Origin: Paramacrobiotus metropolitanus
Taxonomy: Eukaryota; Tardigrada; Eutardigrada; Parachela; Macrobiotidae
Reading direction: 5' to 3'
DNA: 64,000 bases
Assembly (NCBI RefSeq): GCF_019649055.1
Contig: NW_026570363.1
Location: 124,001 to 188,000, forward strand
In this document: positions 13,339 through 31,951 of the stretch, one piece after another
Layout: each line of letters opens with the position of its first letter
Position numbering within the stretch: the first letter of the stretch is position 1
Program-made: the position numbers and the translations under genes
The notes under the pieces: generated by a model
Seen by the model: the letters and a program-made list of their open reading frames with translations, nothing else
Database searches by the model: none
Told to the model about the DNA's origin: nothing

Positions 13339-13692
13339 TGTGAGACCGGGATCACTAGCGTTCACGTCAGTGGCGCTAGGCGCTACGCCTTTGGATTATG
13401 GCCTGTGTTGTGTCTCGCTTCTGATTGGTTTATGTTTTGTTAGTGGGCGCGGCATAGCACGTGCTGCACAGCGTTGCACGCTGTTGAATGGGCTCCACGC
13501 TTTACGATCGAGCTGCGCCGATCAGTGTTGATTTTCTGTTGAGCAGATTTGTCAATATTATTAAAAGTCAGCGATTACGGTGCGACGTTTTGTGTTTCCG
13601 CATAGTTCGCGAACCATATCGTTTCGCTCACTCCACAGGATAGATTCTGTTTCTGTCTCTGTATCTGGATCACAGCTGGATCTAGCATTAGA
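13339..13692 (+). repeat. 5' LTR
   Basis: It starts TGTGAGACCGGG and ends CATTAGA directly against the primer site. The first 309 bp are identical to the 3' LTR. Eight differences fall in the next 27 or so bases, followed by 17 identical bases. The 3' boundary is set by the primer site; the canonical CA end is not present. Confidence 0.9.
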
Positions 13693-13703
13693 TGGTAGCA
13701 GAG
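13693..13703 (+). promoter_or_regulatory. Primer binding site, initiator tRNA-Met
   Basis: TGGTAGCAGAG is complementary to the 3' end of animal initiator tRNA-Met (…CTCTGCTACCA, established knowledge). It begins immediately after the LTR. The match stops after 11 bases. Confidence 0.75.
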
Positions 13704-13861
13704 CCGACAGCGGTTCTCTGATTTGATTTGTGTCAGGCAAAGTTGGCCTGTTATTTGACGTGAAACCCGACCAGTAAGGCACAGGTCTATCCGACAGCAA
13801 AGCGCAACACCACAAGCGGTGCAAGTTCCTCATCTGACGTGGATTTCCAGCCTTGTTTTCG

Positions 13862-14012: not shown

Positions 14013-14569
14013 TGGGGCAGAAGCGCCGAAACGCCGAAAGGGGCGTACGGAAAAGACCGATCAGACTCCTCCAAACTGGAGTAGAGCGCCACCACTGTTG
14101 CTACGGCAGTCAGCCGGCACAGTAACCTATCAAAAGCGTGCGGCACCACCGTTACGGTAAAACCGGCGGCAGCGCGGGAACGGATAGTGGAAGAAGAATC
14201 TGGATCATCTGGATCGATTCTCGTGGAACGGACGAGGAAACAGGTAGAAAACCCGTTATTAATTACGGGATTGGTTAGATGGTAAAATTCTCATTTTTCA
14301 TTGGTCCGTACTGAGCTGAGCGTAGAAGTAGGCGGAGTTTTGCACGCGGCGCGCATGTCTGGCCGTTGACCGTGACGTCAGGCAGATAAAAATTTTTTAA
14401 CGGAATAACGTGATTGGTCAGTTATCTGAGCTGTGATTGGCCGAAATTTGAACTGAATATTTTGAGCTAGCGGACCAATCAGAAAGAAGTAAACAACCCG
14501 AATGGGGATTTTCCGCTGAACTCTAGCTGTAATGGGAAATTTGATTTGAGATAAGATAATTGAGACGAA

Positions 14570-15085
14570 AAGTGACCTTTTGAGTTGAGACAAAGGAAAA
14601 GTGACCTTTGATCGAATTGAGCTTAAAAGTGACCTTTAACTGGAATTGAGCGGAAAGTGACCTTTAACAGAAATTGAACTGGAAAGTGACCCTTTGAGTT
14701 GAGTTGAGTCGGAAAGTGACCTTTGAGACCAGAAGTTGACTTTTGACTTTGAAAAGTGACCTTTACCAAAAAGTTGGAATTGATCAAATTGACCTAATTT
14801 TAGTGACCTTTATGATCTGAAAGTGATCAACGGTGACCTTTAACGGAGTTGGAATTGAGTTGATTAATAGTACAGCGATATCAGTAGCTGTAGGATTTCA
14901 TTCGCTAACGTATTCTGAGCTGTAAAAGCGGGTTCGAAGTTTTGTCCGAAAGTGACCTTTTAGGGCAAATCTCTCGAACTTTTTACCGAAAAAGTGACCT
15001 TTACAAAGGACTTAGTCGAAATTTTTCAGTCGAAAAGTGACCTTTAATAAGGACTTAGAAAAATTTCGGAGGTTTAGAGTGACCT
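14570..15085 (+). repeat. Leader array of AGTGACCTTT words
   Basis: Twelve copies of TGACCTT, most as AAAGTGACCTTT, lie in about 0.5 kb just upstream of gag. All have the same orientation, and spacing is irregular at 25-60 bp. The surrounding bases differ, so this is not a simple tandem duplication. The reverse complement, AAGGTCA, is the word that dominates the coding and 3' regions. Confidence 0.85.
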
Positions 15086-15162
15086 TTAGGATTATTGAAT
15101 AAACCATACAATAACGTGTGTGTGAGAACAATTGACAGGGGCGTCCAAGTTATCCGATCAAC

Positions 15163-18100
15163 ATGGACAGAGAACAAGAGGAACCAACATCTAACAGCAG
15201 TCAGGGAAGCAAAAGCTCCCGTAGCTCACAGCAAAGCGCACCAAATCCATACAAAAAGGATCTGTACCCGTACTCACGTCCAGTTGGACATGAGCGGAAC
15301 ACTCGAGCGCCCAAGGCATTCGAGAAGAAGGATTCACGAGGCTCTGATAGCACTTATCAGAAGGCGCTCGAGGCGGTCGCCAATCAGGAAAGTTCAAGCG
15401 ACGACCAGAAGCACACTCCCGCGTCTACGGCGGGAAGCAATCCGATGAACCAGATAAAGGTCACCGGGGAGGATAAGCCCACAGAAAGAAGAGCGGAACC
15501 GGTTGGAGCATCACAGTCGGATGCTACCACCAGCAGCACAAATGAGCGGGATAAAAATGTAAACCTGGCTCAAGTGGAAGATGGAAATACAAAGGTCACT
15601 GAAGAGGAACTTGTTGAACTGGGACTGGATGACCTTTCACTGAACGATAAGACCATCGGTGATGACCTTTGGGCAACTCCAATGGTCTCGGATGAATCGA
15701 ATGAATCATACTTCACGGATGATGAAGCGACGATGAATATGTCCTTCCAGACTGCGATGAAAGAAGCTGACCGTGCTGAAGGGATGACACCATTTAAGGA
15801 CATACCCGAGCACCTTATTGAACGGACACAAACAGGAAAGGTCATCAATGTTAGACCGCCATCACCGAACAGTCCCACGTCAACTCTGAAGAGACGCGTG
15901 AAGGAGTTGGAAAAAGAAATCGAAGCCAAGGAAGGCCAGGCGACAAAGAAGAAACAAGAGTATCAAAACCGGATAGGATCTCTCGACGCCCGTATCTACG
16001 AATTGGAGCAGCAACAGGCTGATTTGGAAAGCGCAGCGGATGAATGGAAGATTAAATACGAGCGTCAAAAAGAACTCGCCGAGGAGTACTTGAAAATGGT
16101 AGATGACAGAGAAATGGAAGGTCACCTTGCAGTCAGTGACCTTAACGAGAGCATGTCAGAAGAATCAGCCGAAAGGTCACGGCACTTGGCAGAATTAAAG
16201 GACGAATGCGACTCCCTGAAACAAAAGATCACTGAAGCTGAAGCCAAGAGAGATGACTACGCGACTAAACTCGCCGAGGCTACCCAGCGACTGCTGACGA
16301 ACACTACCGAAGTGTTTAAACTCAGGAACGACCTGAAGCTGCGCGACGAGAATATCGGGATCCTCCAAAAGGAATCATATGATCATCAGAGAAGGGCCGA
16401 TGAAGCCGCCAAAGTGGCTAAAGACCTGCGAGATCGTATAACCACCGAAGGCATACGGTTGAACAATGAGATAAAGCAGGCGAAAGAGGAGATTAAGGCG
16501 TTGAAGGAGGACAACAAAAAGGTCACCGAAGCGAATGACGAACTTACCGAAAGAGGCCAAAGATGGGAGCACGAAGCAGATCTCCTAGACACAAAGGTCA
16601 CCGCACTTGAGTTGAAGGATAAAGAGTGGCAACAAATGGTTCACCAGAAGACACAGGAGATCATCAGACTCAACACGGAATTGATTGATATGACCCAAAC
16701 GGCAATGACAAGAGAAGATGAGGTCAATCAGACAAAAAACCAGCTGAAAGCAGCAGCCGAAGAATACATGACGTTGGAAAGAGATGTGACCCAGTTGGCG
16801 GAACACATTAAAAGGGTGGAGAATGACACTGAAAAGGTCATTCAGGAGAAGACTTTCCAACTCCATCAGCACATGCTAAAGGTCAACGAGGAAAATCAGA
16901 ATTTGAGAACGGAAAAAGAGGAATTCCAGTTGAAAGTCCGTCGCCTTGAAGACGAAAATAAGGCGCTCACCATGTCGAATAAACACAAAGATGAACAGCT
17001 GTTGCAATATGGAGTCAGAACGGCAACAGTAGAATCACCCCCGCCCAGTTACAGCAAGGCGCATGAAACGGGCACGGGTAAAAGCTTTCACTTTGAAATG
17101 CCAAAACGAACTGGTACTGGAAAAGGAAGCATCAAAGCGGAACGGGAAGGTGGAAAGGTCAAAGACGACAAGGAGCCACCATCGGAAACTTATTCCCACT
17201 CGAATCGCGGTGATCCCTCCCAATTTCCCCCACATATTGAAACAAAAATTTTTGTTGACGAAAGGAAACAGGAGAGACCGTCTAGCCGTCAAGAACGGGA
17301 TAGACCGTCTAGCCGTCAAGAACGTCCAAGGAAGTCCCGCTACGCAAAGACGAAGCGAAACCAGGAAGATGACGACAGTGATTCTAGTGCAGTAGAAGAT
17401 CAAGATCCGACACAGAAATTGGTAAATGCACTCAATTCGATGGCACGGAAAACGACATTGGTGACCTTTGACGGAAGTCGCGACGCAGTGAACGGTTGGA
17501 CACAACTGGTCAGAGACACCCAACGGACATATCATCTCACCGACGATCAGATTTTGATTGAAATAGCCAGCGCAGTCAAAGGACCGGCGAAGACCTGGTT
17601 TGAAGGAGAGAGAGAAATCGCACTCCAAGAAGAAACGGAATACACCATTACAGAATGGATGGCCAAGTTTAAAGATGAATATGGAGACCGTGACGAGGAA
17701 GTTCTTGGCTTACGAGAAGCTATGGCAAGGAAATTTGACCTTGGAAAAGAATCGCTTGATCAGTTTTATCAAGCGATTATGAAATACAAGGCGAAGAGGA
17801 TCATAACTGAAAAGCAGGCAGTCGGGTTCCTGATTGAAGGATGTAGAGTGGATGGTGACCTTTATAAGGCACTACGCACGCAACAGTGCAGGACTCCAAC
17901 CGAAATCAAAGATTTCTTCCGTCACTGGTCAGCAGGAGAAGACAAATATAAGGCGCCTAAAGGTCAACGTAATCAGGAATACGTGACCATCCGCCAAGGC
18001 CAAGTTGAAAATGCACCGCAACAGAGGATGGCGGCCACACCAGTCCAACAGCCAGTCGAGTACCGCAGAGAGGCGCCGGTCCAAGAGGTCACAAAGGAAG

Positions 18101-18966
18101 TGACCTTTATCGACAGTCAGACCGGGCAACCGTTAACATACGCAATGGTGGCAGCGATACAGGCAGCGGCCCAGGTGAGGCCAGTAGCCCAGAATGTGGC
18201 TCCCCAGAATGTAGCCCAGCAGCCACCTCAGAATATGCCTCCGAATATGGGGTTACCACAACAAGGAGGGGGTAACGGAAACTTCGGCGGAAACGGATAC
18301 GGAAATGGAAACTGGAATGGAGGTCAGGGGAACTTCCAGAACCAGGGACGAGGTCAAGGTCAAGGAAACTTCAGAGGGAACCAACAGCAGAATCAAGGAT
18401 CACGAACAGAGTTCAAGTTCCAGATGATTGATGGATGGGTGGCGAACAACGTGCAGATGTGCCAGTACTGTATGTATGGCAACCATCAGACACAGGGATG
18501 CAAGTTCGCCAATACACCACCGGAACAGAACCCGAATCTGTTTGCCTTTAACGAATGGCAACGCCTCCGAGCTATAGGTGGCTGGCGCCCAGCGGTCGCA
18601 AACGGATATGACCTCATCACCCAATGGTACCAACATAAGGCAAACTTCCAAAACCAACAAGGGAATGGAAACGGGAACTACGGAAATGGAAATGGGGGCG
18701 GCCAAGGCGGCGGCTATCGCGGCGGTGGCTTCGCGGCGGCTTCAGAGGAAGAAACAGAGGCTTCGGCCGCGGAAACTTCAGAGGAGGCCAAAACAATGGC
18801 GGCGGCCAAGGGAACTACCAACAGGGTGGCGGCCAATATAATAACGGTGGCGGACAGAATCCTAACCTGGCAAATGATATCGGACAACAACAAGCAAATG
18901 TGCAGGGCGCGCAACAAGGTGGAGCGCCGGTTCAGGGAAACGGGCAAGATCAGTAGGCACCGGTGA
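15163..18966 (+). CDS. gag: Gag-like protein of the LTR element
   Basis: A 1267-residue ORF. The N-terminus (1-230) is acidic and serine-rich. Residues about 240-640 form a long, charged coiled coil. Residues about 757-930 (TLVTFDGSRDAVNGWTQL... to FFRHW) match the retrotransposon Gag/capsid domain. A CX2CX4HX4C zinc knuckle lies at 1100-1113, followed by a Gly/Asn/Gln-rich tail that should bind RNA. A long coiled coil before the capsid domain is unusual. Near 18735 the frame leaves an RGG-rich stretch. The +1-shifted frame continues it (RGGFRGRNRGFGRG) to a TAG at 18954, so the annotated C-terminus after about residue 1190 is probably a one-base frameshift artefact. The start is the Met before a serine-rich run; an upstream ORF at 15095 is out of frame. 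Confidence 0.88.
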   Translation: MDREQEEPTSNSSQGSKSSRSSQQSAPNPYKKDLYPYSRPVGHERNTRAPKAFEKKDSRGSDSTYQKALEAVANQESSSDDQKHTPASTAGSNPMNQIKVTGEDKPTERRAEPVGASQSDATTSSTNERDKNVNLAQVEDGNTKVTEEELVELGLDDLSLNDKTIGDDLWATPMVSDESNESYFTDDEATMNMSFQTAMKEADRAEGMTPFKDIPEHLIERTQTGKVINVRPPSPNSPTSTLKRRVKELEKEIEAKEGQATKKKQEYQNRIGSLDARIYELEQQQADLESAADEWKIKYERQKELAEEYLKMVDDREMEGHLAVSDLNESMSEESAERSRHLAELKDECDSLKQKITEAEAKRDDYATKLAEATQRLLTNTTEVFKLRNDLKLRDENIGILQKESYDHQRRADEAAKVAKDLRDRITTEGIRLNNEIKQAKEEIKALKEDNKKVTEANDELTERGQRWEHEADLLDTKVTALELKDKEWQQMVHQKTQEIIRLNTELIDMTQTAMTREDEVNQTKNQLKAAAEEYMTLERDVTQLAEHIKRVENDTEKVIQEKTFQLHQHMLKVNEENQNLRTEKEEFQLKVRRLEDENKALTMSNKHKDEQLLQYGVRTATVESPPPSYSKAHETGTGKSFHFEMPKRTGTGKGSIKAEREGGKVKDDKEPPSETYSHSNRGDPSQFPPHIETKIFVDERKQERPSSRQERDRPSSRQERPRKSRYAKTKRNQEDDDSDSSAVEDQDPTQKLVNALNSMARKTTLVTFDGSRDAVNGWTQLVRDTQRTYHLTDDQILIEIASAVKGPAKTWFEGEREIALQEETEYTITEWMAKFKDEYGDRDEEVLGLREAMARKFDLGKESLDQFYQAIMKYKAKRIITEKQAVGFLIEGCRVDGDLYKALRTQQCRTPTEIKDFFRHWSAGEDKYKAPKGQRNQEYVTIRQGQVENAPQQRMAATPVQQPVEYRREAPVQEVTKEVTFIDSQTGQPLTYAMVAAIQAAAQVRPVAQNVAPQNVAQQPPQNMPPNMGLPQQGGGNGNFGGNGYGNGNWNGGQGNFQNQGRGQGQGNFRGNQQQNQGSRTEFKFQMIDGWVANNVQMCQYCMYGNHQTQGCKFANTPPEQNPNLFAFNEWQRLRAIGGWRPAVANGYDLITQWYQHKANFQNQQGNGNGNYGNGNGGGQGGGYRGGGFAAASEEETEASAAETSEEAKTMAAAKGTTNRVAANIITVADRILTWQMISDNNKQMCRARNKVERRFRETGKISRHR

Positions 18967-19036
18967 GCCTACTGATCGACCCGACCCTAAACCACCGGAT
19001 AAAAGGGAAAGGTCACCACTGCAGAATGGTACTGCA

Positions 19037-19651
19037 GTGAACGTGACCACTGCAACGGCTATATGGATGCCGTCAGCGAAAAAGCAAAGTGGACCGGCTA
19101 TATGGATGCCGCAACCACAAGAAACGGCTAGATGGATGCCCCTACAGCAAAGAGAAACGGCTATATGGATGCCGTCATCGCAAAGAGGAAATGGAACGGT
19201 TATAGGAATACCGTCACAAAGTGAAAGGTCACCGCAGAATGGCACTGCGAGTGGAAACGTTCAAGTGGATAAAAGGTCACCGCAGAATGGTACTGCGAGT
19301 GGAAACGCGCAACGGGACCAAAGGTCACCGCAGAATGGTACTGCGAGTGGAAATTGTCGTGACGGTAGCGCGACACTGCAAAAAGGGCAGCAAAATGAAA
19401 GGTCACCGTATTGCAGCGAAAAAGTGTTAGCTGAACGTCGTGCATTACGTAATGCCAAGATTCGACAAGCGCTGTTAAACCAAAAGAAACCGCAAACTGA
19501 AACCGCAGAAGAAGTGGAAATGCACCACGAATGGTTTCGGAAACAGATAAATGGCAAATCGAAAGACCAAAATTCACCACCGCAGAACGATACTGCGCAA
19601 GAGGAAAATGAGCAACACGCGAAATTCCGGAAATTTGGCAGAAAACCATAG
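19037..19651 (+). CDS. Repeat-rich ORF2 of the LTR element
   Basis: A 204-residue ORF with two short internal repeats: AIWMP-type units (five, about residues 6-60) and RSPQNGTASGN units (three, about 75-115). The rest is charged and glutamine-rich. The repeated DNA forms small hairpins (GCAGAATGGTACTGC and CGGCTATATGGATGCCG). No known domain is seen. It overlaps the next ORF by 101 bp in another frame. Since the amino-acid style continues across the overlap, it may once have been one reading frame with ORF3. Its start is uncertain. Confidence 0.55.
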   Translation: MNVTTATAIWMPSAKKQSGPAIWMPQPQETARWMPLQQRETAIWMPSSQRGNGTVIGIPSQSERSPQNGTASGNVQVDKRSPQNGTASGNAQRDQRSPQNGTASGNCRDGSATLQKGQQNERSPYCSEKVLAERRALRNAKIRQALLNQKKPQTETAEEVEMHHEWFRKQINGKSKDQNSPPQNDTAQEENEQHAKFRKFGRKP

Positions 19652-20594
19652 GGCGAAGGAGCCAAGTTGCGATTGTTACGGGGAGCCAAAGCCAAAGTTT
19701 TGGAATTGCTCAGAAGATGAAGAAGAGAAGTTGATAAGGCAACAATGGATTCAGCAGAACACCACTGTTAACAGTAAAGATGAAAGGTCACCTTCTGTCG
19801 GAAACGTCCAAGTGAAAGGTCACGGAGCGAGTGCGAATGTGAAAGGTCACGGCGACAGCGTCGTGTCAAAAGGTCAAGAAAATGACTTGACACTGCGAAC
19901 AGCGCAGCAACAGAATAACGAACTGGCACACCAGAACTCCGACGACTCACTTGACGATGCAGTAACGTTACAACAGAAGGAAAGGTGGCAAAAAGTGGCC
20001 TACAGACCAAATGGGAATCACGGGATGTGGATACCTGTGACGCCGAAAGCAAAGCAGAAAGCGAGAATGTCACAAGAGGATTACTGGGATATGCAACAGT
20101 TGCGAACGCAATGTGAAAGAAAGCGACTGGAAGAGTTGGTTACCGGGAAACCAGCGCAAGGGCCATCGAACCCAGTCCCAGTATTCAATCCAGACGAATA
20201 TAAGAAGACATTCGCTGACTGGAATCATTCACGTAATGCTCCACCACAGGATAAACCGCCGAATTATGGAGAAAAAGTCCCCATACAAAAGCTGACAGGT
20301 GGCGGATTTGTCATGAAGCGCAACGAAAGGTCACAGGACTTAGCGCAAAATGGACAAAAAGGACGGTCAAATGAAATGGCGCAAACGAAACAGAGTAACG
20401 CAGTTGAAAGGTCACGGGACTTATCGGAGGCGCTGAAAAAGGATGCCAATGACAAGTCACCAGCCCGAACAGACGGAATGTCTTCACAAATTGATCAGAC
20501 GAAAACGAACAATGAAGTCTCCGCGAAGGTGATCGAATGGATGACCGAAAAGGATATGACATGGTTACATATGAAAGGTCACCAGATGAGATGA
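19551..20594 (+). CDS. ORF3 of the LTR element, unknown function
   Basis: A 347-residue hydrophilic ORF rich in K, E, Q and N, with KGHG, ERSP and ERSQD words produced by AAAGGTCAC in different frames. I see no domain or membrane segment. A Cys pair (SCDCYG) lies near residue 40. The part overlapping ORF2 (about the first 33 residues) looks like out-of-frame translation, so the functional part probably starts later or is reached by frameshift. It overlaps ORF4 by 58 bp. Confidence 0.55.
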   Translation: MANRKTKIHHRRTILRKRKMSNTRNSGNLAENHRAKEPSCDCYGEPKPKFWNCSEDEEEKLIRQQWIQQNTTVNSKDERSPSVGNVQVKGHGASANVKGHGDSVVSKGQENDLTLRTAQQQNNELAHQNSDDSLDDAVTLQQKERWQKVAYRPNGNHGMWIPVTPKAKQKARMSQEDYWDMQQLRTQCERKRLEELVTGKPAQGPSNPVPVFNPDEYKKTFADWNHSRNAPPQDKPPNYGEKVPIQKLTGGGFVMKRNERSQDLAQNGQKGRSNEMAQTKQSNAVERSRDLSEALKKDANDKSPARTDGMSSQIDQTKTNNEVSAKVIEWMTEKDMTWLHMKGHQMR

Positions 20595-22906
20595 AAGATA
20601 GCGAAGAAGACGAATTGAAGCGAGCTGACCAAATAACAAGCGAAGTCATTCAGAAGCTGAGAGATAAGCGAAATGAAAACCGTAAAGAGGAATTGATCCA
20701 TCAGACGATAAATGAAGTGACTAAAGGTCACATGGATGGCACAAAAGCAAATGAGCAAGTGCAGAAGGTGGAAAAGGTCACCGGTGATAATATGGCTACA
20801 GAGAAGCGAACAGATAAAGAAAAGCCGCGAAAATATTACGATGTTCGGACTAACGTTCCACACAGGATTGATAAGTTGAGCGAGATACTGAAAGGTCACA
20901 GCAGACCAGCAAAAGGACAAGTGCTTCCCGATATGGATCCGGGACCAGTATCGCTTATCCCTGTGAAATGTAAGATTCACACCTTGAAGATTCAAAACGG
21001 AAAATTGCCCAAAAGAATTGAAGCATACACACATGAAGTGAAAGTGGGAGACATAAAGGTCAACGCAATGTTGGACACCGGCGCTGAGACGTCGCTGATC
21101 AGCAAACCGTTTTGCGAGAAGAATGGACTCCACATGCTCCCATTGCCACCTGACAGATTGGTGAAAATAAATGGAATTAGCGGAACGTCAGGATTCCTGG
21201 TAACGCACTACTGTGTAGCACCAGTGACCTTACGAAAGAAGACAAGCGAACATTCCTTCTACGTCCGACCGAAGTGCGACGACGTACAAGTGCTACTGGG
21301 ATTCGACTTCTTAGAGAAGAAGTTCGTACTGATGGATAATGAAGGCGAAGAAGAGAAAGAAGATGACCCCAAACCAGTCGCCAAGGTTCAAGTCGGAAAG
21401 GTCACCGAACTTGTAAAACAGACGGGAAACTCTCAAACGGTTAATAAAACGCTAATCCCAGTACCAGAGGCACCGGGAAACGAAAAGAAAAAGATGACGC
21501 GAAAAGAATTGTCACCATTTGAGCAGTTGCAAATGATTCAGCAGGAGATCGAAAAGACATTAAATCGGACCATGCCGGCACAGAAGGGAAGAGAAAAGGT
21601 CATCCCAGTACCAGAGGCACCGGGAATGACAAAAGTGCAGCAGGAAGAAATTATCCCAGTACCAGAGGCACTGGAAACGAAAAATGAAAATGGAAAAGTC
21701 GGAAAAGTTATCCCAGTACCAGAGGCACTGGGAAAGGAAGACGAAAGGTCACCAACGACAAGAGATAAGAACTTGGAACCAGAGCGCATTTCGAACCTTT
21801 TCGAACCACGATCTGTTACCCAAAATGAAAGGCTACCAGATAAAGCCAAAGAGGAAGTAACAGAACGTGACTCTCAAAAGGAACCCTTTTTCGAACCGCG
21901 ACCTGCTACCGAAAGGTCACCAACGATTGAAGAGATAATTGCCACACAGAAAGAAGCGGCAGTTGCAGCGAAACAGTCTCTTGTGCCAGACATGGAGTGG
22001 GCAAAGCCTATCCCAGTACCAGAGGCACTGGAAATAAAGACGGCTAAAGTGGCGAAGGATAAAAAGAGTGAAAGATTACGAGTTCTAAAACGGATAGCCG
22101 AAGAGGAGCAGATGTTCACAAGTGAAATCCGCGATAAGGCACTCGAACAATTGAAAGGTCACCGAACAGAAAAAGAACCAGAGGTCATTGAAATATCCTC
22201 TGAGGATAAAAGCGTGACTCCAATCGAATGTGAGGAAGATACCACAGTACAGGAACAGGTTAAACCTGAAGCGAGTCAAAGGACATTAACTCCAGAAGAA
22301 CGAGCCGGGAGTTGTCACCACGGTTACTTTGAGGATCCGTGCAGAGTGCAACCACAATGGGAATGCGCGGAGTGTTGTGAAAATGCCTCTCAAGATGACC
22401 CTTCAGAATGGCCAAGATGTAATGCCGCATTAGCAGACCTTAAAGGTCATGCCCAAAAGAAAGCGAAAAGCATCATGCGGACAAACGAAATGTGGAAACC
22501 ACACATCGAACGATATCATTGGAATAGATATCGAACGTGGTTGTCATGTGTAGAAAGTTTTATAATTGGAAGAGGCAGATGGCTAAACCATTGGTTGCAA
22601 CGTGTCGAGAAAGGAATCCAAGATCCTCTCGATCCGGTAGCAACAGAAAGGAGATTTGAACGAGAGATAGAAGAAATGACCGAAGAAGGAGAAATGTGGG
22701 AAGAAGCGAGGGTTGACCTTTTTTGGGACTTCCGTGTGAACCACATGTATAAAGGTGAAGGGAGAACGATCATCTTCCCGGCAGGACTTGGTACACCTGT
22801 CTATGAATCACTGGAAGTGTACTACAATGCGATAAAAGATGGAAACGAAAAACATTCGAAAAATATTGGAATAAATTTGAAGAGGAAATCCCCAGATTTG
22901 ATGTAA
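20537..22906 (+). CDS. ORF4: retroviral-type aspartic protease plus Cys-rich tail
   Basis: A 789-residue ORF. Residues about 165-270 are a retropepsin: the active-site DTGAETSLI has its Asp at residue 180, and the flap-side and C-terminal motif LLGFDFLE closes the domain. It should act as a dimer to process Gag and Pol. After it comes a long linker with about five copies of IPVPEA(P/L) and two FEPR boxes. A Cys/His-rich segment follows near residues 595-635 (CHHGYFEDPC, CAECC and a further C). Beyond that is a Trp- and Arg-rich C-terminus. The Cys segment is not part of standard Gypsy polyproteins I know. The ORF ends six bases before the pol Met, in a different frame. Confidence 0.82.
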   Translation: MDDRKGYDMVTYERSPDEMKDSEEDELKRADQITSEVIQKLRDKRNENRKEELIHQTINEVTKGHMDGTKANEQVQKVEKVTGDNMATEKRTDKEKPRKYYDVRTNVPHRIDKLSEILKGHSRPAKGQVLPDMDPGPVSLIPVKCKIHTLKIQNGKLPKRIEAYTHEVKVGDIKVNAMLDTGAETSLISKPFCEKNGLHMLPLPPDRLVKINGISGTSGFLVTHYCVAPVTLRKKTSEHSFYVRPKCDDVQVLLGFDFLEKKFVLMDNEGEEEKEDDPKPVAKVQVGKVTELVKQTGNSQTVNKTLIPVPEAPGNEKKKMTRKELSPFEQLQMIQQEIEKTLNRTMPAQKGREKVIPVPEAPGMTKVQQEEIIPVPEALETKNENGKVGKVIPVPEALGKEDERSPTTRDKNLEPERISNLFEPRSVTQNERLPDKAKEEVTERDSQKEPFFEPRPATERSPTIEEIIATQKEAAVAAKQSLVPDMEWAKPIPVPEALEIKTAKVAKDKKSERLRVLKRIAEEEQMFTSEIRDKALEQLKGHRTEKEPEVIEISSEDKSVTPIECEEDTTVQEQVKPEASQRTLTPEERAGSCHHGYFEDPCRVQPQWECAECCENASQDDPSEWPRCNAALADLKGHAQKKAKSIMRTNEMWKPHIERYHWNRYRTWLSCVESFIIGRGRWLNHWLQRVEKGIQDPLDPVATERRFEREIEEMTEEGEMWEEARVDLFWDFRVNHMYKGEGRTIIFPAGLGTPVYESLEVYYNAIKDGNEKHSKNIGINLKRKSPDLM

Positions 22907-22911
22907 AAGAG

Positions 22912-25900
22912 ATGCGAGAATTACAGATAACCCGGAAAAGAAGATTACCGGGATTAATGCAAAAGAAAAAGGTGACCTTTGCACCAGATCCAGATGGAGT
23001 GGACTACCCCGAACGAGGCGGTGATACATGGTGCATGTATGAAACGATCCCAAATGATGAATGGGTCACCGAAGAGCTGATGGCAAACTGCATCTTTGTT
23101 GGGCCTAAACGACCTAAAGGTTACGAAACAGTTCAACAGGATGAAGCCAATAAAGGGACTGTCAAAGAAGCAGAGAAAGAGGAACCAGTTCAAGAGATAG
23201 TCGAAGGAAGATCGAACGAAACGGAAGAAAGTTCAAAGTCGGCTTTCGACATTGCACAGATGTTAACGGACAGGGGCGAAATGTGGAAGAAGTTTAAAGA
23301 AGAAGTTGAACGAATATCCAATGAACAGCAAAACCCAGTAACTGAGGCAAAAAACGGGGAAAGGTCACTCGATAACGGTGAGGAATGTCCGCCGGTCGAG
23401 TTGACCGAAAAGCCATTAACGAGCCTTGAAGAAATAAATGAACTGGAAAAGTCAAAATCGGACGAAGAAAGGTCAAACTCCGATCAATCAGAAAGGTCAC
23501 CGACGAGAATTCGGGTAGCAAGGAGTCACCCGAGAGTAGCCGCACGAAACGGGCGAAAGGCAAAAGAAGGGGACAAACCCCTGCTCAAAAATTTGAAAGC
23601 GAAAAAACTTAGCGATTCGCGAGAAAACGAAAGTGACCTTTCATCAGAAGATGAAGGAGTTGATGAGCGCCCACTTGAAAAGGTTGACAAAGGTCAAGCT
23701 ACTGCACAAGAATATGAGAGCAGTAACTCCGACTCCGAGTGGACGAGTTCAAGCGATAACTCAACAACTTCGGAAGATTCAGGTGTAAGTGACCTTTCGG
23801 AGCAAGAGGATTTAATGGACTTGGATGAAGATGACGAAGTAGATGAGGAAAAAGAAAAGGATATTAAAGTCAGAAGGTTGAAAGTGGAGAAAGCTAGAAT
23901 GTCGAAGGACGTGATCAAAGTTTACAGCGATCAGCGAATCAAATTGAAACCGTCAAACTGCACACGTGTAAAGGTCAAGATGGGAAAATATGCACCGGCT
24001 CAAAACAAGCTGATGTTTACACCGGTCCCACAAGTGGAAACTGAAGTGCAACCGTTGGCAGGAGTGACGGACCACAGGGGAAAATACTTCGAAATCGTCA
24101 TTGCCAATCATAGCAGTAAATACCGGATTGTGAAGAAAAATCAGCTTCTTGGCTACGTTGAGCCGTACGAACATATGGAAAATGTAAAGGTCAACGCCGG
24201 GACAGTAAAGAACGTACTCGAGGACCCGGAGGTGGACGACACAACGAAAGCTGAATTGAAAAAGATAATTGAAAACTTGAAATTGGGACCTGACCTTACC
24301 GAAGAGCAGAAGAACGACGTGTATAACGCGTTCTGGGAATTCTGGAAGGTCTTACCCACATCAAAGAAACCATATGGAGATGTGAAAGGGGTCACCCATG
24401 TAATTGATACGGGAGATGCGAAGCCAGTTAAATGTAACCCGGCCAGAACGAGTTGGACAGGCCGCGAGTTTATAACGAAGCATATCGAAGAGATGCTGGC
24501 ACAAGATGTAATTGAACCGTCAGATGCCGAGTGGAGTTTTCCAGTCGTGCTGGCAGTAAAGAAAAATGGCGACGGAACAATGGGGACAAGATTTTGTGTC
24601 AACTATATCATGCTTAACAAGCTAACGAGAAAGAATAATTACCCGTTACCAAATCCGGATGAGTTGCTCGACGCGTGCGCAGGCAACAAATATTACGGAA
24701 AAATGGACTTACAAAGTGGATTCTGGCAGATCCCAATGGATCCAGCGTCAATCAACAAGACGACCTTTGTAACACAAGATGGAATGTACCGATTTAAAAG
24801 AATGCCATTTGGCGTATGCAACGGACCAGCAACGTTTCAATTGTGTATGGATAAAGTACTTTCGAAAGCGAAAAGAAAGGGTTGCGTTTTCGGGTATATC
24901 GACGACGTGATCTTCGCCGGAAAAACTTGGGAAATTTTCATGCAGAATCTGCGAAATGTTTTAATGAGTCTGGTGGAAGCGGGATTCACGATTAAGCCAA
25001 CGAAATGCGAATTTGGAATGAGACAAATGGGATTTCTGGGTCATATACTCAGCGAGGACGGAATTCGTATGGACCCGGAAAAGGTCACCGCGGTCTCCGA
25101 GTTCAAACGGCCTCAGACTGAAAGACAATTAAGGTCATTCCTTGGACTGGCGAACTATTATCGCAAATTCATAATGGGATACGCACAGAAGACTTCCCAC
25201 TTATATGAACTGCTGAGACAAGATAAGCACGTGAAAAAGGACTGGACGGCAGCACATGAAGAAGAGTTCAATAGTTTGAAGAAGTTGTTGTGTGAAGGTC
25301 CAGTACTGGCAAAGTTTGACCCCGCGAAACCGACCGTTATTGAATGCGACGCGAGCAAAGAGGGAATCGGAGCCGTACTGTCACAAGATGGACATCCGAT
25401 CGCGTACGCCAGTCGTGTCCTACATGGAGCGGAGAAGAATTACGGTGTAACAGAATGGGAATGTCTGGCAGTCGTGTTTGCTGTCAGAAAATTCAAGCCG
25501 TACATTGATTATGCTGAATTCACCGTAAGGACGGATCATCAGGCGCTCACCAATTTGTTAAGGTCAGAAACGAATAAAGTTGGAATGAATCCACGTTTGA
25601 CAAGATGGGCAATGGCGTTGCAAGGTCACCAGTTCAAAATTGAATATAAACCGGGAAAGTACTGTGACAATGCGGACGCGTTATCGAGAGCACCGATCGA
25701 AGGGCCAACGTGTCACGAAGAAGAATTTGACGAAATTCCGAATTTCGAGGATTACAAGAAGGAGTTTGATATGAAGGAACCAGCAATTGAAGTTGGACAG
25801 CTATTCCTGCAGATGGTGGAACAGAGGGAGAAACGATTAAAGGTCACTTCAGCTACGGCGAACGAGTCGGCTGAAAACGAAGCAAAAGTGAACCGAGTGA

Positions 25901-28245
25901 GAAGCTGGTTGCCCGCCGTTAGTGACTTAAAGGTCACCGGACTTGACGCGGAATCTCAAATGCAGAATGGAAAGGTCACGGGACTTGATGATAGAGCGGG
26001 GAATAGAGACGACCTTTGGGAAACGGACAAAGTGGCACAAGCGTTGAACGAATGCCCAATCAAACTGTTGAGATTCCCAAAACAGGCGAAAAAGCGATAT
26101 AAACCGTTACCACGATGCAAGGTCATCAAGGATTGGAATGAACTCAGTACAGCGACAGTTCGCATTGTCAACCTGCAAGGTGACGAAGAAGAGGTTGATG
26201 ACTCAAACTTGCAATTGCGGAATAAACAGTTGAAAGATCCCCATCTGGCAATGATCATAGACGAATTGGAACACCTACCAGACGCGGAAACAAGATCGAA
26301 ATTTGAAGTGCATTACCAGTTATGGAATGGTATATTATACCGAGTAAAGGATAAAAATGGGAAACTTGAAAGGTCATATGTTGTACCGTTGTCAATGCGA
26401 AGAGCGATAATCCACGCATTGCACGATGAGAAGGCAGCAGGACATTTAGGATTTGAGAAGACACTGACAGCGATTCGACTCCGATATTACTGGGACAGGA
26501 TGAGTACAGATGTGAAGAATTACATACTCGCCTGTCAAGGATGTCAGTTTCGTAAAACACCGAGGAAATGCCCACCTGGAAAATTGCAAGAGATTAAGGT
26601 TGGACATCCGTTCTTCCGAGTGTACGCTGATCTGAAAGGACCGTTGCTCCCAACGAAGAAACGCGGATACAAATACATAGCGGTATTCATCGATCAACTG
26701 ACGAAATACGTGATTGCAGTACCGATGAAAACGGCGACGGCCAAGGAATTCGCTAAAGTGTTCGTGAAGCACGTGATATTGGTACACGGAGCACCGCACA
26801 TCCTACATACGGATCGCGGACGACACTTTACAGCTGAAGTATTAGCAAAGGTCACCAACGTGTTTAAGATTAAACACACATTTGGAACCGCATATCACCC
26901 AGAAGGTCAAGGCCAAGTTGAAAGACAGATGCAGACGATTGCGGATGGCTTGGCGCAATACCTGAAAGCGGGAAATGAAAGAAAGTTTAACAAGTACCTC
27001 CCATATGTCATTTCAGCGATGAACAGAGTCGTACACGCCACAACGGGATATTCAGCATACTATATGCTACACGGCAGAGAAATGACAATGCCGGAAGATG
27101 TGGTTACGAAAACGAATATACCCGATGATTATGGGACTCCAGACGAATGGGTGGAGACCATGAAGAAGAACTTGACCTTTGCAGAAGAAGTGGCACGGTG
27201 TAATATTAAAGACGCTTATGAGAAGAACGCGGAGATTTACAACAAGAAGAAGTCTGAGCCGAACTTTAAAGTGGGAGATTTTGTATTGATACGGCTACCA
27301 AAGGATACGAAACAAGGGAAAAAAGAAAACCAATCGGACTTTAAGTCGAAATACGATAAAGTTTGGAAGATTCTCAGTTTCCCGCGACCAAACGAAGCCG
27401 AGGTCATTGAACAGAACCCGAAGAAAGAAGCAGACCTAAAAGTAGTCTCCATTGATCGCTTGAAACCATGGCATCCGCCATTACCCGACGAGAAAAATTC
27501 GCAACGAACGTTGAACGAAAAAGAAACGGAAGAAGCCGAGCATGCTTCGAAAAATGGTACCAATCAATTTTTCGAACCACCTCTGCTACCTGAAATGGAG
27601 AATGCTAGTGGAAAAGAAGACGAACCAGAGCGGAGTCCGAAAAATGACTCAGTTACACAACAGAAGCCATTTTTCGAACCACCTCCGCTACCTGAAATGG
27701 GAGAAGGTCAAACGAATGGGTTAAACGGAGATAAACCGAAACAGAAGCGAGGAAGGAAAAGGAAAGAAGACAAAGACTTTGAAACTGCAGTCACAATTAA
27801 GTTGAACGCAGAAGCTGGTAATTTGGCAGAAAGGTCACTGGAAAAAGATACCGAAACGAGTTCCAAAGTACCAGAGCGTTCCTCCAAAAAGGACCTGCAA
27901 CAATCCTTTTTCGAACCACGCACTGCTACCGCAGATAAAGATGACCTTTTGAAACAGCGAACGGACGCTGAGATATCAGAGCGTGACTCGAATTTTTTCG
28001 AACCACGCACTGCTACCGGCAATGAGAATGACCTCATAAAAAAGAGAAAAGAGGAAATAGAGGCGGTCAAATCAAAAGCCGAACAGTTGGACCGTGATAT
28101 AGCGAAAGCAATCGATGAGAGAAAGGTCAAACAGAAGAAAAAGAAACTAACTCCTACAGAATTGCTGACGCAGAAGGGTGAAGTTGAAGATGCCGCCGAC
28201 AAAGAACTTCTTGATAGGATAACTAAAGGACGCAAAAACAAGTAA
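22912..28245 (+). CDS. pol: Pol: reverse transcriptase, RNase H, integrase
   Basis: A 1777-residue uninterrupted ORF. Residues 1-430 are an acidic, serine-rich extension. The RT spans about 500-690, with YIDDV at 662-666. RNase H spans about 800-915, with the first acidic residue in ECDASKEGIG at 813. The integrase zinc domain runs from HDEKAAGH (about 1168) to CQGC (about 1208). The catalytic core has D1240, D1301 and E1337, the D,D-35-E spacing. Integrase C-terminal KVGDFVLIRL is followed by a tail of about 270 residues. The tail carries repeated FFEP(R/P) boxes and a lysine-rich end. All key catalytic residues seen are present, so this ORF looks functional. Expression would need initiation after ORF4 or frameshifting, since the previous ORF ends in another frame. 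Confidence 0.93.
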   Translation: MRELQITRKRRLPGLMQKKKVTFAPDPDGVDYPERGGDTWCMYETIPNDEWVTEELMANCIFVGPKRPKGYETVQQDEANKGTVKEAEKEEPVQEIVEGRSNETEESSKSAFDIAQMLTDRGEMWKKFKEEVERISNEQQNPVTEAKNGERSLDNGEECPPVELTEKPLTSLEEINELEKSKSDEERSNSDQSERSPTRIRVARSHPRVAARNGRKAKEGDKPLLKNLKAKKLSDSRENESDLSSEDEGVDERPLEKVDKGQATAQEYESSNSDSEWTSSSDNSTTSEDSGVSDLSEQEDLMDLDEDDEVDEEKEKDIKVRRLKVEKARMSKDVIKVYSDQRIKLKPSNCTRVKVKMGKYAPAQNKLMFTPVPQVETEVQPLAGVTDHRGKYFEIVIANHSSKYRIVKKNQLLGYVEPYEHMENVKVNAGTVKNVLEDPEVDDTTKAELKKIIENLKLGPDLTEEQKNDVYNAFWEFWKVLPTSKKPYGDVKGVTHVIDTGDAKPVKCNPARTSWTGREFITKHIEEMLAQDVIEPSDAEWSFPVVLAVKKNGDGTMGTRFCVNYIMLNKLTRKNNYPLPNPDELLDACAGNKYYGKMDLQSGFWQIPMDPASINKTTFVTQDGMYRFKRMPFGVCNGPATFQLCMDKVLSKAKRKGCVFGYIDDVIFAGKTWEIFMQNLRNVLMSLVEAGFTIKPTKCEFGMRQMGFLGHILSEDGIRMDPEKVTAVSEFKRPQTERQLRSFLGLANYYRKFIMGYAQKTSHLYELLRQDKHVKKDWTAAHEEEFNSLKKLLCEGPVLAKFDPAKPTVIECDASKEGIGAVLSQDGHPIAYASRVLHGAEKNYGVTEWECLAVVFAVRKFKPYIDYAEFTVRTDHQALTNLLRSETNKVGMNPRLTRWAMALQGHQFKIEYKPGKYCDNADALSRAPIEGPTCHEEEFDEIPNFEDYKKEFDMKEPAIEVGQLFLQMVEQREKRLKVTSATANESAENEAKVNRVRSWLPAVSDLKVTGLDAESQMQNGKVTGLDDRAGNRDDLWETDKVAQALNECPIKLLRFPKQAKKRYKPLPRCKVIKDWNELSTATVRIVNLQGDEEEVDDSNLQLRNKQLKDPHLAMIIDELEHLPDAETRSKFEVHYQLWNGILYRVKDKNGKLERSYVVPLSMRRAIIHALHDEKAAGHLGFEKTLTAIRLRYYWDRMSTDVKNYILACQGCQFRKTPRKCPPGKLQEIKVGHPFFRVYADLKGPLLPTKKRGYKYIAVFIDQLTKYVIAVPMKTATAKEFAKVFVKHVILVHGAPHILHTDRGRHFTAEVLAKVTNVFKIKHTFGTAYHPEGQGQVERQMQTIADGLAQYLKAGNERKFNKYLPYVISAMNRVVHATTGYSAYYMLHGREMTMPEDVVTKTNIPDDYGTPDEWVETMKKNLTFAEEVARCNIKDAYEKNAEIYNKKKSEPNFKVGDFVLIRLPKDTKQGKKENQSDFKSKYDKVWKILSFPRPNEAEVIEQNPKKEADLKVVSIDRLKPWHPPLPDEKNSQRTLNEKETEEAEHASKNGTNQFFEPPLLPEMENASGKEDEPERSPKNDSVTQQKPFFEPPPLPEMGEGQTNGLNGDKPKQKRGRKRKEDKDFETAVTIKLNAEAGNLAERSLEKDTETSSKVPERSSKKDLQQSFFEPRTATADKDDLLKQRTDAEISERDSNFFEPRTATGNENDLIKKRKEEIEAVKSKAEQLDRDIAKAIDERKVKQKKKKLTPTELLTQKGEVEDAADKELLDRITKGRKNK

Positions 28246-28300
28246 CCCACATAAATAAGATTAACGGGCGTTTACGATGTTAAGAACGGGAGTTGGGAAG

Positions 28301-29775
28301 GAGTAAAGGTCATTCGACGCAAACCAGCGATCGTTTTCGTTGCTAGTGGAAAGGTCACCATACTCCGACAAAAAAGACATCAAGTTGAAAGGTCACTAGA
28401 ATCCGACTGCGGTTCAAACAGAAACGTCAAAAGGTCAAGAGAATTTGGAAAACGCGGGAAACAAGAAAGGTCATCAGACTTGGACTGAATCATACGGGAG
28501 AAATGAAAGGTCAATCGAAATGAAAGGTCAAGATACTGCGAATTCAACAGAACAGCGAAAAGGTCACGGGAGGCCGGAATCATCAGAGAGGTCGAAAGGT
28601 CCTCAAAGTAGTCAGAACAGTCATCACAAGGTCATCGAAGACGAAAGGTCATCAAAAACTGTCGTCCAGTTGAAAGGTCATCGGACTCTGAATGAAGCAC
28701 AAAATGAAGTGAATCGTCAATTGAAAGGTCAAAGTGACGGAAGAGGTGCAAACGTCGACTGAAGCAAAACCGGAGCAAGTGAAAGGTCAATCAAAAGGTT
28801 AAGAGACTCTGGCAGAAATCCAAATGGAACAGCCAAAAGGTCACGAAAGATCTGGATCAGCAAAAAGGAAAGGTCATCAGACGAGATTGTGAAGCCAGAT
28901 CACCGAAAACCATAAGGTCAAGTGACCGATGAACCAAAGGTCAAGCGCAAATGAACTCAAAGGTCAAATGTCAAATGAACAAAGTGTCAAGTGAAAGGTC
29001 AAGTGACAGACCAACTGAAAGGTCACGGGACTTTGACAGAAAAAGACGAACAGCCTAAAGGTCAAGAGACGTCTGGAACTGTGGCAGGAGAAATTCAATT
29101 GAAAGGTCAGGAGATTACGGAAAAAGGGGAGAAAGAAAAGGTCATGCTCCCAATGGAAAAGCGGCAGTAGAGGTAGAAGCGGACTCCGCGCGACAGGTGC
29201 TTCAAAAATCGTTGTTTACACCGTAAAAGACGCTTCAACGACGGAGAAACCGAAAGGTCAGGAGACTCCACTGGCGCCCGAGAAAGCGAAAGGTCACGAG
29301 ACTTTGTCTCAAAAAGAGAAGACTGACCAACCGAAATCGGCTCAGTTGGCGATATTGACAATTGATGAGAAACGGAGCCAAGAAACAAACCCAACGGACT
29401 CGGCATCCCCCTAGAAACTGGATACATGCGGTACACCAGCGAAAGACATCCCGGAGTACATACTACCGGAACAAAACAAAAATGCGTGGAGAATGGTCAT
29501 AACTGATGCCATTGGATAATATGACGACGACATGACCTTTTGAGTACAACGCTGTCGACTTCGAACTGGAAGAACTTTGTACTCGAATAATGGCGAAGAG
29601 ATCAGAAACAGTTGAATGTTAATTAATTATCGATGGGGCACTAGAACTGGTGTAAACGTCAAAAACGTGAAAGGTCACCATGTGAGAATGAGCTTAATAA
29701 TGCAGCGTGAAAAGGTCATCACGTTAAAGTACTGAAAAGGTCATCAGAAGCGGTTATGATGGTTAAGTATAAAGG
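28301..29775 (+). repeat. 3' array of AAAGGTCA words
   Basis: About 29 AAGGTCA copies lie in 1.5 kb of non-coding sequence after pol, usually as GAAAGGTCA, with one copy in the opposite orientation. Spacing is irregular. Fragments in the same style as the upstream linkers (KGH, ERS) are readable in short ORFs such as 28445-28762, suggesting decayed coding linker. Confidence 0.85.
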
Positions 29776-29876
29776 TCACGTGACATATTTACTTAAATTG
29801 TATTCGTGTATTGTTTGTTTTCAGCGTTTATAGCACAGAACCGCAAAGGATAAAGAAATCATGTGGAGCATCGATT

Positions 29877-30330
29877 GGGGTTAAAATTGATTCGGTCTAC
29901 AAAGCCGGCCCCAAGGGAGTAGTCACGGCAATCAGCCGGCTCTCCTTCTTAAGCGACTCAGTGTTACAAATCGGCAAGAGAAATTACGGTAATCAAGCCG
30001 GATCTCTTGAATACGAAAGCGGACCACAAGCGGCGAAAAAGAGAAAGATAACAGGTGGAAATATTAATGGGGTAAACTTGATGCGGCAGTCAGCCGGCCT
30101 CATTAGAGTTGCCACGGTAAACTATGCCGGCACTCTCTTTAAGCGATTCAGTGTTAAAATTAAAACGAGAAAAACTACGGTAACCAAGCCGGATTTCTCG
30201 TAGTGATGTTAGCCACAAGCGGCGACCAAGAGTAAAAGATTAAAGGTGGAAATTTCATGGGGTAAACTCAATGCGGTAACTAGCCGGCCCCATTAGAGAT
30301 GCTACGGTAAACTTGCCGGCACTTTGGCCG
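29877..30330 (+). repeat. Imperfect direct repeats with AGCCGGC cores
   Basis: About two and a half copies of a unit of roughly 150-180 bp. Each contains AGCCGGC, a CATTAGAG-like stretch, GCCGGCACT and GTAACCAAGCCGGAT-like words. An ORF across it (29811-30203) has no domain. Confidence 0.6.
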
Positions 30331-31118
30331 CTCGAGGCATACTGAAGTTGGATGTGCGACGCAAAGGTCAAATCAAGTTTTTACCAGGGAGGCAAGCGAA
30401 GAAGTGCTTGAAAGCCGCAGATAATTGGCTAAGTTCCTCCATGACCTTTAATGGAAGTTTGACGAAAAGTCGGATGACCTTTGGGATCATCAATTGCCCA
30501 ACGAGAGTCACCGTAATGGAATGAAAGTCGCATGACCTTTGGGACCATTAACCCAAAACGAGTCGCACATCTCAACGGATCATCTTAACAAAGGATGACC
30601 TTTACTAGGGAGGAAGCGAACTACGCTTGTCTTCATTGACGTCCCTCCATGACCTTTATTGAATCTCATTTTGAAGTCGTACGAATGATACGCACCAGAT
30701 TCCAAAGATTGAAGCAGTATTCCTAAGTCGTACTTGATACGCACCTGATTCTCAAGCGGATTGTGATGGAAAGTCGCATTATGGATGCGCAGGATTGCTC
30801 AACAGAGCGGAATAGGCCAAAGTGCGGAAAACGGTGGACAGGACCTGTGACCTATACGAGTCAGAAATGGAGGATCCTAGTCTACTTTTGATTAATACTT
30901 TTGTTGATCTTTTAACTGTTGATCTGTTTTGTATTAGATTTGATATGGAATAGTATTTTGATACAGATCTCTTTATTCACATTGTGCATTTGGAATTATG
31001 TGATAAATGGAATAAGAGAATTTGATGTTTTCGAGCACGCACAGACACTGGCGACCGTCTTCTCGTGGATTCGGGAGTGTGTCCAGCCTCACAGGAGCTC
31101 GGCATCCCCCCAGAGGCA
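30331..31118 (+). other. 3' untranslated end of the element
   Basis: Five TGACCTT copies between about 30440 and 30660 are oriented opposite to the array just upstream, as in the leader. The remaining 400 bp up to the LTR is AT-rich. I could not identify a clean polypurine tract; the bases before the LTR are CCCCCCAGAGGCA. Confidence 0.5.
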
Positions 31119-31472
31119 TGTGAGACCGGGATCACTAGCGTTCACGTCAGTGGCGCTAGGCGCTACGCCTTTGGATTATGGCCTGTGTTGTGTCTCGCTT
31201 CTGATTGGTTTATGTTTTGTTAGTGGGCGCGGCATAGCACGTGCTGCACAGCGTTGCACGCTGTTGAATGGGCTCCACGCTTTACGATCGAGCTGCGCCG
31301 ATCAGTGTTGATTTTCTGTTGAGCAGATTTGTCAATATTATTAAAAGTCAGCGATTACGGTGCGACGTTTTGTGTTTCCGCATAGTTCGCGAACCATATC
31401 GTTTCGCTCACTCCACAGGATAGATTCCGTTTCTGTCTCCGTCCCTGGATCCATTCTGGATCTAGCATTAGA
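31119..31472 (+). repeat. 3' LTR
   Basis: It has the same length and TGTGAGACCGGG start as the 5' LTR, and its first 309 bp are identical. The first difference is at 31428, and eight differences cluster before the final 17 identical bases. It directly abuts coding-like sequence of the Kv channel. Confidence 0.9.
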
Positions 31473-31951
31473 TGGTGGTGGTGGCGCATTTCCTGGAATC
31501 TAGCGATTGCGATATATCGCCCGTCGAACATGAGCAACATTCAGTTTCCTGCTTGAAGGCGTACCGCAGCTATTTTATTTCTTTGGATATACTGTATTTG
31601 GTCATATTTACTGTGGAATACGTCCTAAAGATATGGGCATGCGCCAAAGACGTGCGTTTTTCTGCTAAGTTTTAAGTCGATTTTGGATGTGGTATGTAGC
31701 AGAAACCTAGAACCATAACTATATACAGTCTACAGAAGCTGTGTATTGAGAAATAGACACACATGACATTGCACACTTTTGGCTTTTGCAGATTTGTCTC
31801 CTAATTACTGTCCTGCGACTGATATGGGGTACTGAACTCAACGAATACGAGTTCGTTGGAATATTTTCTGCTCTCCGTATGCTTCGCGCCTTCCGTACGT
31901 ATGAAACGTTGTAGACTATACTGCTCGAAATTAACTTAAGCCAACTAGGTA

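Follow-up and report, generated by a model that had tools for sequence, protein, structure and literature searches.

An eight-base word saturates the internal DNA of a Ty3/gypsy-type retrotransposon in the tardigrade Paramacrobiotus metropolitanus

Why would a retrotransposon carry more than a hundred copies of one short DNA word? The question is raised by a 64,000-nucleotide stretch of the tardigrade Paramacrobiotus metropolitanus (NW_026570363.1, positions 124,001 to 188,000; contig 143 of a 169.8-Mb host genome), which we call the window. An earlier note, made from the letters of the window, had counted by eye about 85 copies of AAGGTCA and 33 of TGACCTT within one retrotransposon at 14570-30660, and about a dozen elsewhere. 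The exact numbers are 84 and 33 inside these limits and 9 and 7 in the remaining 47.9 kb, so that the sites outside are indeed few, if slightly more than a dozen. We find that the internal DNA of this element is kept saturated, by selection at the nucleotide level, with the 8-bp word AAAGGTCA(C) on both strands. Throughout, the word is the 8-mer AAAGGTCA with its 7-mer core AAGGTCA (reverse TGACCTT), and sites were counted on both strands.

The element is an LTR (long terminal repeat) retrotransposon of the Ty3/gypsy type and extends from about 13339 to 31476, farther in both directions than the earlier note had placed it. Direct LTRs bound it on either side (Table 1). A Pfam scan of five open reading frames (ORFs) found reverse transcriptase (RT, residues 551-713), RNase H (803-904) and an integrase core (1248-1330), in that order, in the pol ORF, and an aspartic protease domain at residues 167-260 of the ORF that precedes it, which is the Ty3/gypsy arrangement. 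The same scan found no envelope-like domain in these ORFs, and no clear target-site duplication was seen in the element's flank sequence as printed. The pol protein finds its best relatives in P. metropolitanus proteins, with 98 and 95% identity. As a separate observation, the LTR pair has diverged unevenly, with the first 309 bp identical and 8 mismatches within the last 49 bp.

The abundance of the word is far above chance, as the earlier note had judged. Dinucleotide composition predicts 1.84 AAGGTCA and 0.65 TGACCTT for 14501-30700, and in dinucleotide shuffles (200 per part) the total never exceeded 5 in any part of the element. The right flank of the window (32.6 kb) is mildly enriched, with 12 sites against a shuffle mean of 3.5 and maximum of 9. 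On both strands together the element holds 103 copies of AAAGGTCA, the first A being present in 88% of the 117 AAGGTCA sites, and for the next base after the site C accounts for 52%, A for 23%, T for 21% and G for 3%. One-base changes at positions 2-8 give 21 variants, which together occur 23 times where the flanks (summed rows) predict about 17, while the three variants at position 1 total 14 against 1.5 predicted. Variants that are scarce except at position 1 point to a site under constraint that is lenient at its first base and not to a decaying repeat, which would show many variants everywhere. Sites are densest in the leader array and the 3' non-coding tail. On average one site falls every 140 bp across 16 kb, and about one every 46 bp within the leader; the widest interval without a site in the window copy spans 790 bp of pol from 24291, around the start of the RT domain. 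Evenly spaced sites at one per nucleosome were considered and found no support, the occupancy of 147-bp windows being 0.633 compared with 0.658 for random placement.

Selection on the word is visible in coding DNA. We shuffled synonymous codons within the gag, pro and pol ORFs, 2000 times each. The 19 sites in gag compare with a shuffle mean of 3.0, the 13 in pro (the protease ORF) with 1.3, and the 26 in pol with 2.6. The earlier note had staked its claim on codon-preserving shuffles falling short of such counts, and they do: the observed total was reached by 0/2000 shuffles in each ORF. If every place where the amino acids permit the word is counted as an opportunity, 58 of 87 in the three ORFs carry it, compared with 4 of 93 for two control words taken in both orientations. 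The forward word fills 43/60 opportunities and the reverse word 15/27 (Fisher p 0.15), which leaves strand-specific selection in coding DNA unsupported; for the two control words in reverse, the figure is 1/34. Forward words occupy three reading frames, and reverse words only the two that avoid a stop. The word has been fitted into the coding parts largely through synonymous choice, and the use of both strands within ORFs favours duplex DNA over RNA as the thing that is read.

The same holds where no protein is encoded. We compared the 3' tail with two other copies, L052 (85% identity) and L053 (79%), picked from 40 scored candidates, and masked the words before alignment. In L052, 29 of 34 window words are intact in register, 3 are changed and 2 lie opposite gaps; in L053, 22 of 34 are intact in register. 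Control 8-mers displaced by 12-30 bp were intact in one fifth to one half of cases, and alignment without masking gave 29/34 and 25/34 conserved words for L052 and L053, respectively. Substitutions between the window and L052 affect 12 of 256 word bases (0.047 per base) and 92 of 630 bases in the 10-bp flanks (0.146). The corresponding figures are 31/240 (0.129) and 157/597 (0.263) for the window and L053, and 18/232 (0.078) and 102/579 (0.176) for L052 and L053. With bases treated as independent, the Fisher p is about 1.5e-5 for each of the two comparisons with the window. In the non-coding tail the word therefore evolves two to three times slower than its flanks, and the loss of the word at homologous places in related copies, which would have told against the earlier note, is not what these two copies show. 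We conclude that the word is almost certainly a selected site in duplex DNA.

Host DNA is also rich in the word. Our host sample comprised 245,862 bp outside the element, namely 20 random loci (L032 included) and the window flanks. There, AAAGGTCA occurs 47 times, more than any other of the 840 words that share its composition (mean 9.2, sd 5.9), and the 15 copies of AAAGGTCAC (mean 1.9) are reached by 0/600 sampled words. For the core AAGGTCA the count is 70 against a mean of 29.5, with 8/420 same-composition words at or above it. A host background near chance, as read from a reversed-word control, was overturned by this comparison. Genome-wide, AAAGGTCA is found 42,562 times and its reversed word 15,522 times; for AAAGGTCAC the numbers are 19,414 and 3,461. 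Most host sites are solitary, and for 38 of the 47 the nearest other site is more than 500 bp away. Among 14 loci chosen for holding the word without an element match, two (L022 and L025, at C1 around 305.0-305.5 kb and 331.8-332.1 kb) are clusters, with four further copies within 300 bp. Separately, a near-unchanged 28-bp stretch that contains AAAGGTCA stands at about 33,684 of the window, at L038:4846 and at L039:4186, and is probably a dispersed word-carrying repeat. Tandem arrays of AACGTTCTGA-like units occupy 33823-34077 of the window, and similar words (ACGTTCT, AACGTCA) form large arrays at the random loci L038 and L039.

What would read such a word? Its reader is probably a host protein, and we consider the chances that this protein is a nuclear receptor to be about even. 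In the excerpted text of PMC4777543, AAAGGTCA is the NR4A monomer element NBRE, so that the 103 copies in the element match the site letter for letter. The host genome has 63 zf-C4 matches, which are nuclear-receptor-type zinc-finger exons assigned at the zf-C4 level and not to subfamily, and an excerpt of PMC12941274 reports 42 C4-type zinc-finger proteins in this host. The identity of the 8-mer with the NR4A site, together with these exons and proteins, makes a monomer-binding orphan receptor the first candidate. A host sequence-specific duplex-DNA-binding protein, most likely one of this kind (NR4A/HR38- or NR5/ERR-like), would bind the word. Loaded over 16 kb, it would keep a very long transcription unit open and transcribed where the protein is made, for which the germ line or early embryo would be the place; alternatively, it would insulate the element. 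Either way the element would resist silencing. That the sites lie through the body and not at the promoter suggests a benefit to the chromatin state of the whole unit, and this is the least supported step. An effect of the reader on the chromatin or transcription of the element body is a tentative proposal, to which we give a little less than even chances. Taken as a whole, we find it an evenly poised reading that the element is a body-wide site array for a host protein, probably of nuclear-receptor type, with a gypsy-like leader of 12 sites; the protein and its effect are what we infer.

The closest known parallel is gypsy of Drosophila, also a Ty3/gypsy-type element with a site array in its 5' untranslated region. 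According to the excerpt of PMC2374998, gypsy has 12 sites for the host factor Su(Hw) in 340 bp, and the host's own Su(Hw) sites are mostly isolated. The window element likewise has 12 sites in the 514 bp before gag, and its host sites are mostly single. The leader array alone would act like the 12-site Su(Hw) array. The two elements differ in the word itself, in the roughly 105 further sites that the window element carries across gag, pol and the long 3' tail, and in that an insulator role is putative here. Mammalian short interspersed nuclear elements (SINEs) are short and carry one or a few receptor sites each, whereas a copy of the window element has more than a hundred, selected within the element. 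The likeness is that in both cases a mobile element would spread receptor sites used by host receptors: NR5A2 acts as a pioneer-type receptor through mouse SINE B1 repeats (PMC11202083), and Alu is reported to carry retinoic-acid and HNF4 sites (PMC1785376, PMC3252374). The NR5A2 site given in the excerpt of PMC11202083 is TCAAGGCCA and not AAAGGTCA, while NBRE is the identical 8-mer and is bound by a monomer (PMC4777543, as excerpted); binding by a tardigrade receptor is putative. The periodic An/Tn clusters (PATCs) of C. elegans, a non-coding feature able to prevent transgene silencing in the germ line (excerpt of PMC7725773), resemble the array in effect only, the sequence being different. 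Among the open-licence papers listed, we saw none that describes such word saturation.

The earlier note, right about the saturation itself, had spoken of one retrotransposon, but the element is not the only one of its kind. In a pol protein search of the same genome, 36 of 2545 candidates were scored (the window copy included), giving 50 matches, and the long matches have 84-100% protein identity. Relatives were read as pieces and compared by the opportunities that they fill. L008 (pol 63% identity) fills 9/16. L003 (pol 72%) fills 4/16, still above shuffles (0.6), and L005 fills 0/12, where shuffles predict 0.2; L003 and L004/5 had been taken as word-rich, which the opportunity counts overturned. 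L054, a 2,051-bp pol piece of a copy with 84% pol identity, fills 0/11 (shuffles 0.5), where the window fills 11/18 in the same stretch. At 6 of these 11 window sites, the codons of L054 encode the same amino acids, and 4 of the 6 are one base off the word. The zeros of L054 and L005 match the shuffle prediction, so that the pressure is absent there and the word is not avoided. L032, a distant relative (46% identity in that part of pol which was seen), is free of AAGGTCA over 10 kb. Another piece, L051, sought as the tail of the C97 copy, matches the element over about 150 of 2,751 bp, and its lack of the word was not used as evidence. The word marks a lineage of the element. The earlier note had recognised a nuclear-receptor half-site with a 5' extension, a view that the match to the NR4A site and the enrichment of host DNA bear out; it had not foreseen that the word is confined to some lineages.

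L003 and L005 appear, from their order and strand, to be parts of the same element (about C1:97.7-120.6 kb), and this element is rich in a second word, GAGATC(A/G). The 6,018 bp that were read contain 22 copies, a density about 20-fold that of the host (0.18/kb). Per kb, there are 1.16 AAGGTCA in the L003/L005 element, compared with 7.27 in that of the window and 0.30 in host DNA. In those stretches of the L003/L005 element not used for word discovery, 29 copies of GAGATC(A/G) lie in 16,852 bp and 47 in the surrounding 637,100 bp; these were counted on one strand among 100 matches listed, with 11 beyond 660 kb excluded as another cluster and the element limits taken from the same list. Synonymous shuffles give 6.9 AGATC(A/G) in the pol of L003, where 14 are found, and 4.8 in the gag of L005, where 11 are found. 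At 5 of 11 changed sites homologous to window words (one of them a gap) L003 shows AGATC(A/G), for which a chance rate of 0.03 per site was assumed. On a trinucleotide background, the 6 kb scores 5.0 for AGATCA and 6.8 for AGATGA, both below the best word at random loci (7.8; 17 loci, three satellite-bearing loci left out). AGATCA is raised in the word-bearing L008 as well (6 against 1.8, p 0.004), and GAGATCA in L054 (3 against 0.5, p 0.006). It is conceivable, though rather unlikely in our estimate, that related lineages each saturate their body with a private word, AAAGGTCA in one and GAGATC(A/G) in its sister, switched at homologous sites, which would amount to an evolving address code that follows changes in DNA-binding proteins. 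The lesser sharpness of the second word and the rise of AGATCA in L008 slightly lowered these odds. Further local clusters of the second word (YGATCTC) are found at C1:664178-668691 and C1:674761-677737.

Two other candidate words are not claimed. GGGCCAA occurs 18 times in 10 kb of L032 and exceeds synonymous shuffles in 3 of 5 long ORFs (7 against 2.0, 8 against 2.7, 2 against 0.3). Its score of 7.9 is within the range of other loci's top words, and across the genome it is not in excess, with 12,255 copies where the reversed word has 14,320. AGTTCA, considered for the lineage of L054, reaches 7 against 2.8 in 2 kb, yet the window pol also has 10 against 4.0.

Several results weigh against a body-wide array read by a host protein. 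Promoter factors usually act in LTRs, and neither LTR has a site, nor does 13648-14572. The sites are no more evenly spaced than under random placement. In L053, 8 of the 34 words are changed (3 of these have an intact word at most 3 bases away) and 4 face gaps. The case for host enrichment depends chiefly on the comparison with words of the same composition: with reversed words as the control, AAGGTCA is not in excess in the 20 random loci (54 against 51), and AAAGGTCA (35 against 21) and AAAGGTCAC (12 against 6) are modestly so; the host sample may also contain fragments of mobile elements. Relatives in the same genome that are at chance level in the pieces read (L054 and L005) mean that the word is not required by every such element. 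Finally, the one relative rich in GAGATC(A/G), a word not enriched in the host, would be explained at least as well by a lineage-specific, possibly element-encoded reader.

This last point leads to the strongest competitor, in which a protein of the element (Gag, integrase or the product of an unassigned ORF) recognises the word on the complementary DNA of the element itself, so that reader and word change together in each lineage. A second word in a relative would be compatible with a reader encoded by the element, or with lineages that track different proteins. It fits with an element-encoded reader that the window and L008 bear the word, that the L054 and L005 pieces lack it and L003 has little, that the relative at C1:97.7-120.6 kb is dense in a second word and shows part of it at changed homologous sites, and that neither GAGATCA nor GAGATCG is enriched in the host sample. 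However, the host's own DNA is enriched for AAAGGTCA, and Pfam found only protease, RT, RNase H and integrase in the five ORFs, with no sequence-specific duplex-DNA-binding domain; by eye there is a retroviral-type zinc knuckle. The second word is also less sharp, scoring below the best chance word, and the words do not sort cleanly by lineage, given the raised counts in L008 and L054. We consider an element-encoded reader unlikely.

The leader raises another possibility, that its reverse words (UGACCUUU) pair with forward words (AAAGGUCA) of the body and tail and so fold or multimerise the genomic RNA for packaging. All 12 leader sites of the window are reverse, 9 of them of the form AAAGGTCACTTT, while the body outside the leader leans forward, 84 sites to 21. 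AAAGGTCACTTT occurs 1,297 times genome-wide, against 116 for its reversed word, and the first 100 places listed include nine clusters of at least 3 sites, each cluster in a single orientation (59/59 sites). At C1:208-220 kb lies a distant element (protein identity 63% in pol and 33-38% in gag), of which two stretches were read; its six sites nearest gag on the upstream side are again all reverse. But two sites farther upstream there are forward and its pro-pol stretch is mixed, with 9 forward and 6 reverse; one-way leader arrays can also arise by tandem duplication, and the window does have tandem repeats that carry the word, with units of 28-57 bp in the leader and 48 bp at 19224-19353. In addition, reverse words are strongly selected within the ORFs, where their controls are nearly absent. 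A role in RNA is improbable to our mind. A clustered dozen of sites in the 5' untranslated region, in a host whose own sites are mostly isolated, agrees with the gypsy/Su(Hw) pattern.

A host repressor or marking system that recognises AAAGGTCA, with the element tolerating the word, would account for the richness of sampled host DNA in the word and for the many copies of the element; but escape through synonymous codons is open, the word is maintained nevertheless with few variants, and the L054 piece writes the same or similar peptides without it (6/11 sites differ silently), which makes such tolerance very improbable. That the word has no function, and arose by short-satellite amplification, repetition of a protein motif or bias in codons or composition, can be set aside with near certainty, since local tandem repeats do carry some copies but the flanks are unrelated at 64 of 73 sites in 20660-30660, the words occupy three forward and two stop-avoiding reverse frames, shuffles fail to reproduce the counts and the word is conserved in non-coding DNA.

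Searches for regulatory sites in mobile elements usually turn to LTRs or short leaders. In this element, selection acts on a binding-site-like word across 16 kb that include gag and pol, and the synonymous positions of a retrotransposon are shaped by selection at the level of DNA. If a host factor reads the word, the element would be a natural array of more than 100 sites in which to study recruitment, chromatin opening and escape from silencing, in an animal phylum whose regulatory biology has been little studied. If the words of the lineages truly differ, they would document how specificity has changed between a parasite and a DNA-binding protein.

Table 1. Parts of the retrotransposon in the window, with their word sites.
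Feature	Position	Strand	Remarks
5' LTR	13339..13696	+	358-bp match to 31119-31476, 97.8% identity; 0 sites
Primer-binding-site-like sequence TGGTAGCAGAGC at 5' LTR edge	13693..13704	+	Read from sequence; we take it to resemble the end of initiator-Met tRNA
Leader array	14573..15086	-	12 sites, all reverse; 9/12 of form AAAGGTCACTTT; spacing 28-119 bp
gag-like ORF, 1267 amino acids	15163..18966	+	No Pfam match; CX2CX4HX4C zinc knuckle visible in translation; 19 sites
Middle region; ORFs 19037-19651 and 19551-20594 overlap; tandem repeats of 48 bp	18967..20536	+	11 sites, all forward
Aspartic protease ORF	20537..22906	+	Pfam; 13 sites
pol ORF (RT, RNase H, integrase)	22912..28245	+	Pfam; 26 sites; largest site gap 24291-25081
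3' non-coding tail	28246..31118	+	36 sites, of which 30 forward and the final five (30442-30656) reverse; most retained in L052 and L053
3' LTR	31119..31476	+	Repeat of 5' LTR; 0 sites

Some smaller features of the element and its surroundings deserve mention. Within the protease ORF, a 51-nt unit is repeated five times at 21429-22034 (61-100% alike) and encodes IPVPEA-type peptides. The protease and pol ORFs are separate in the window copy (22906-22912), while several other copies have one frame of about 3,000 amino acids across the pol match. An imperfect inverted repeat lies at 31949-32265, about 470 bp beyond the 3' LTR. Around the element, long ORFs encode rhodopsin-type G-protein-coupled receptor domains at 1635-2702 (-) and 51513-52559 (+), and protein kinase domains at 53016-53669 (-), 60856-62022 (+) and 62195-62899 (+). 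Mirror-image CCTTTG and GGCAAA arrays of equal length, at 55364-55434 and 57375-57445, suggest an inverted duplication.

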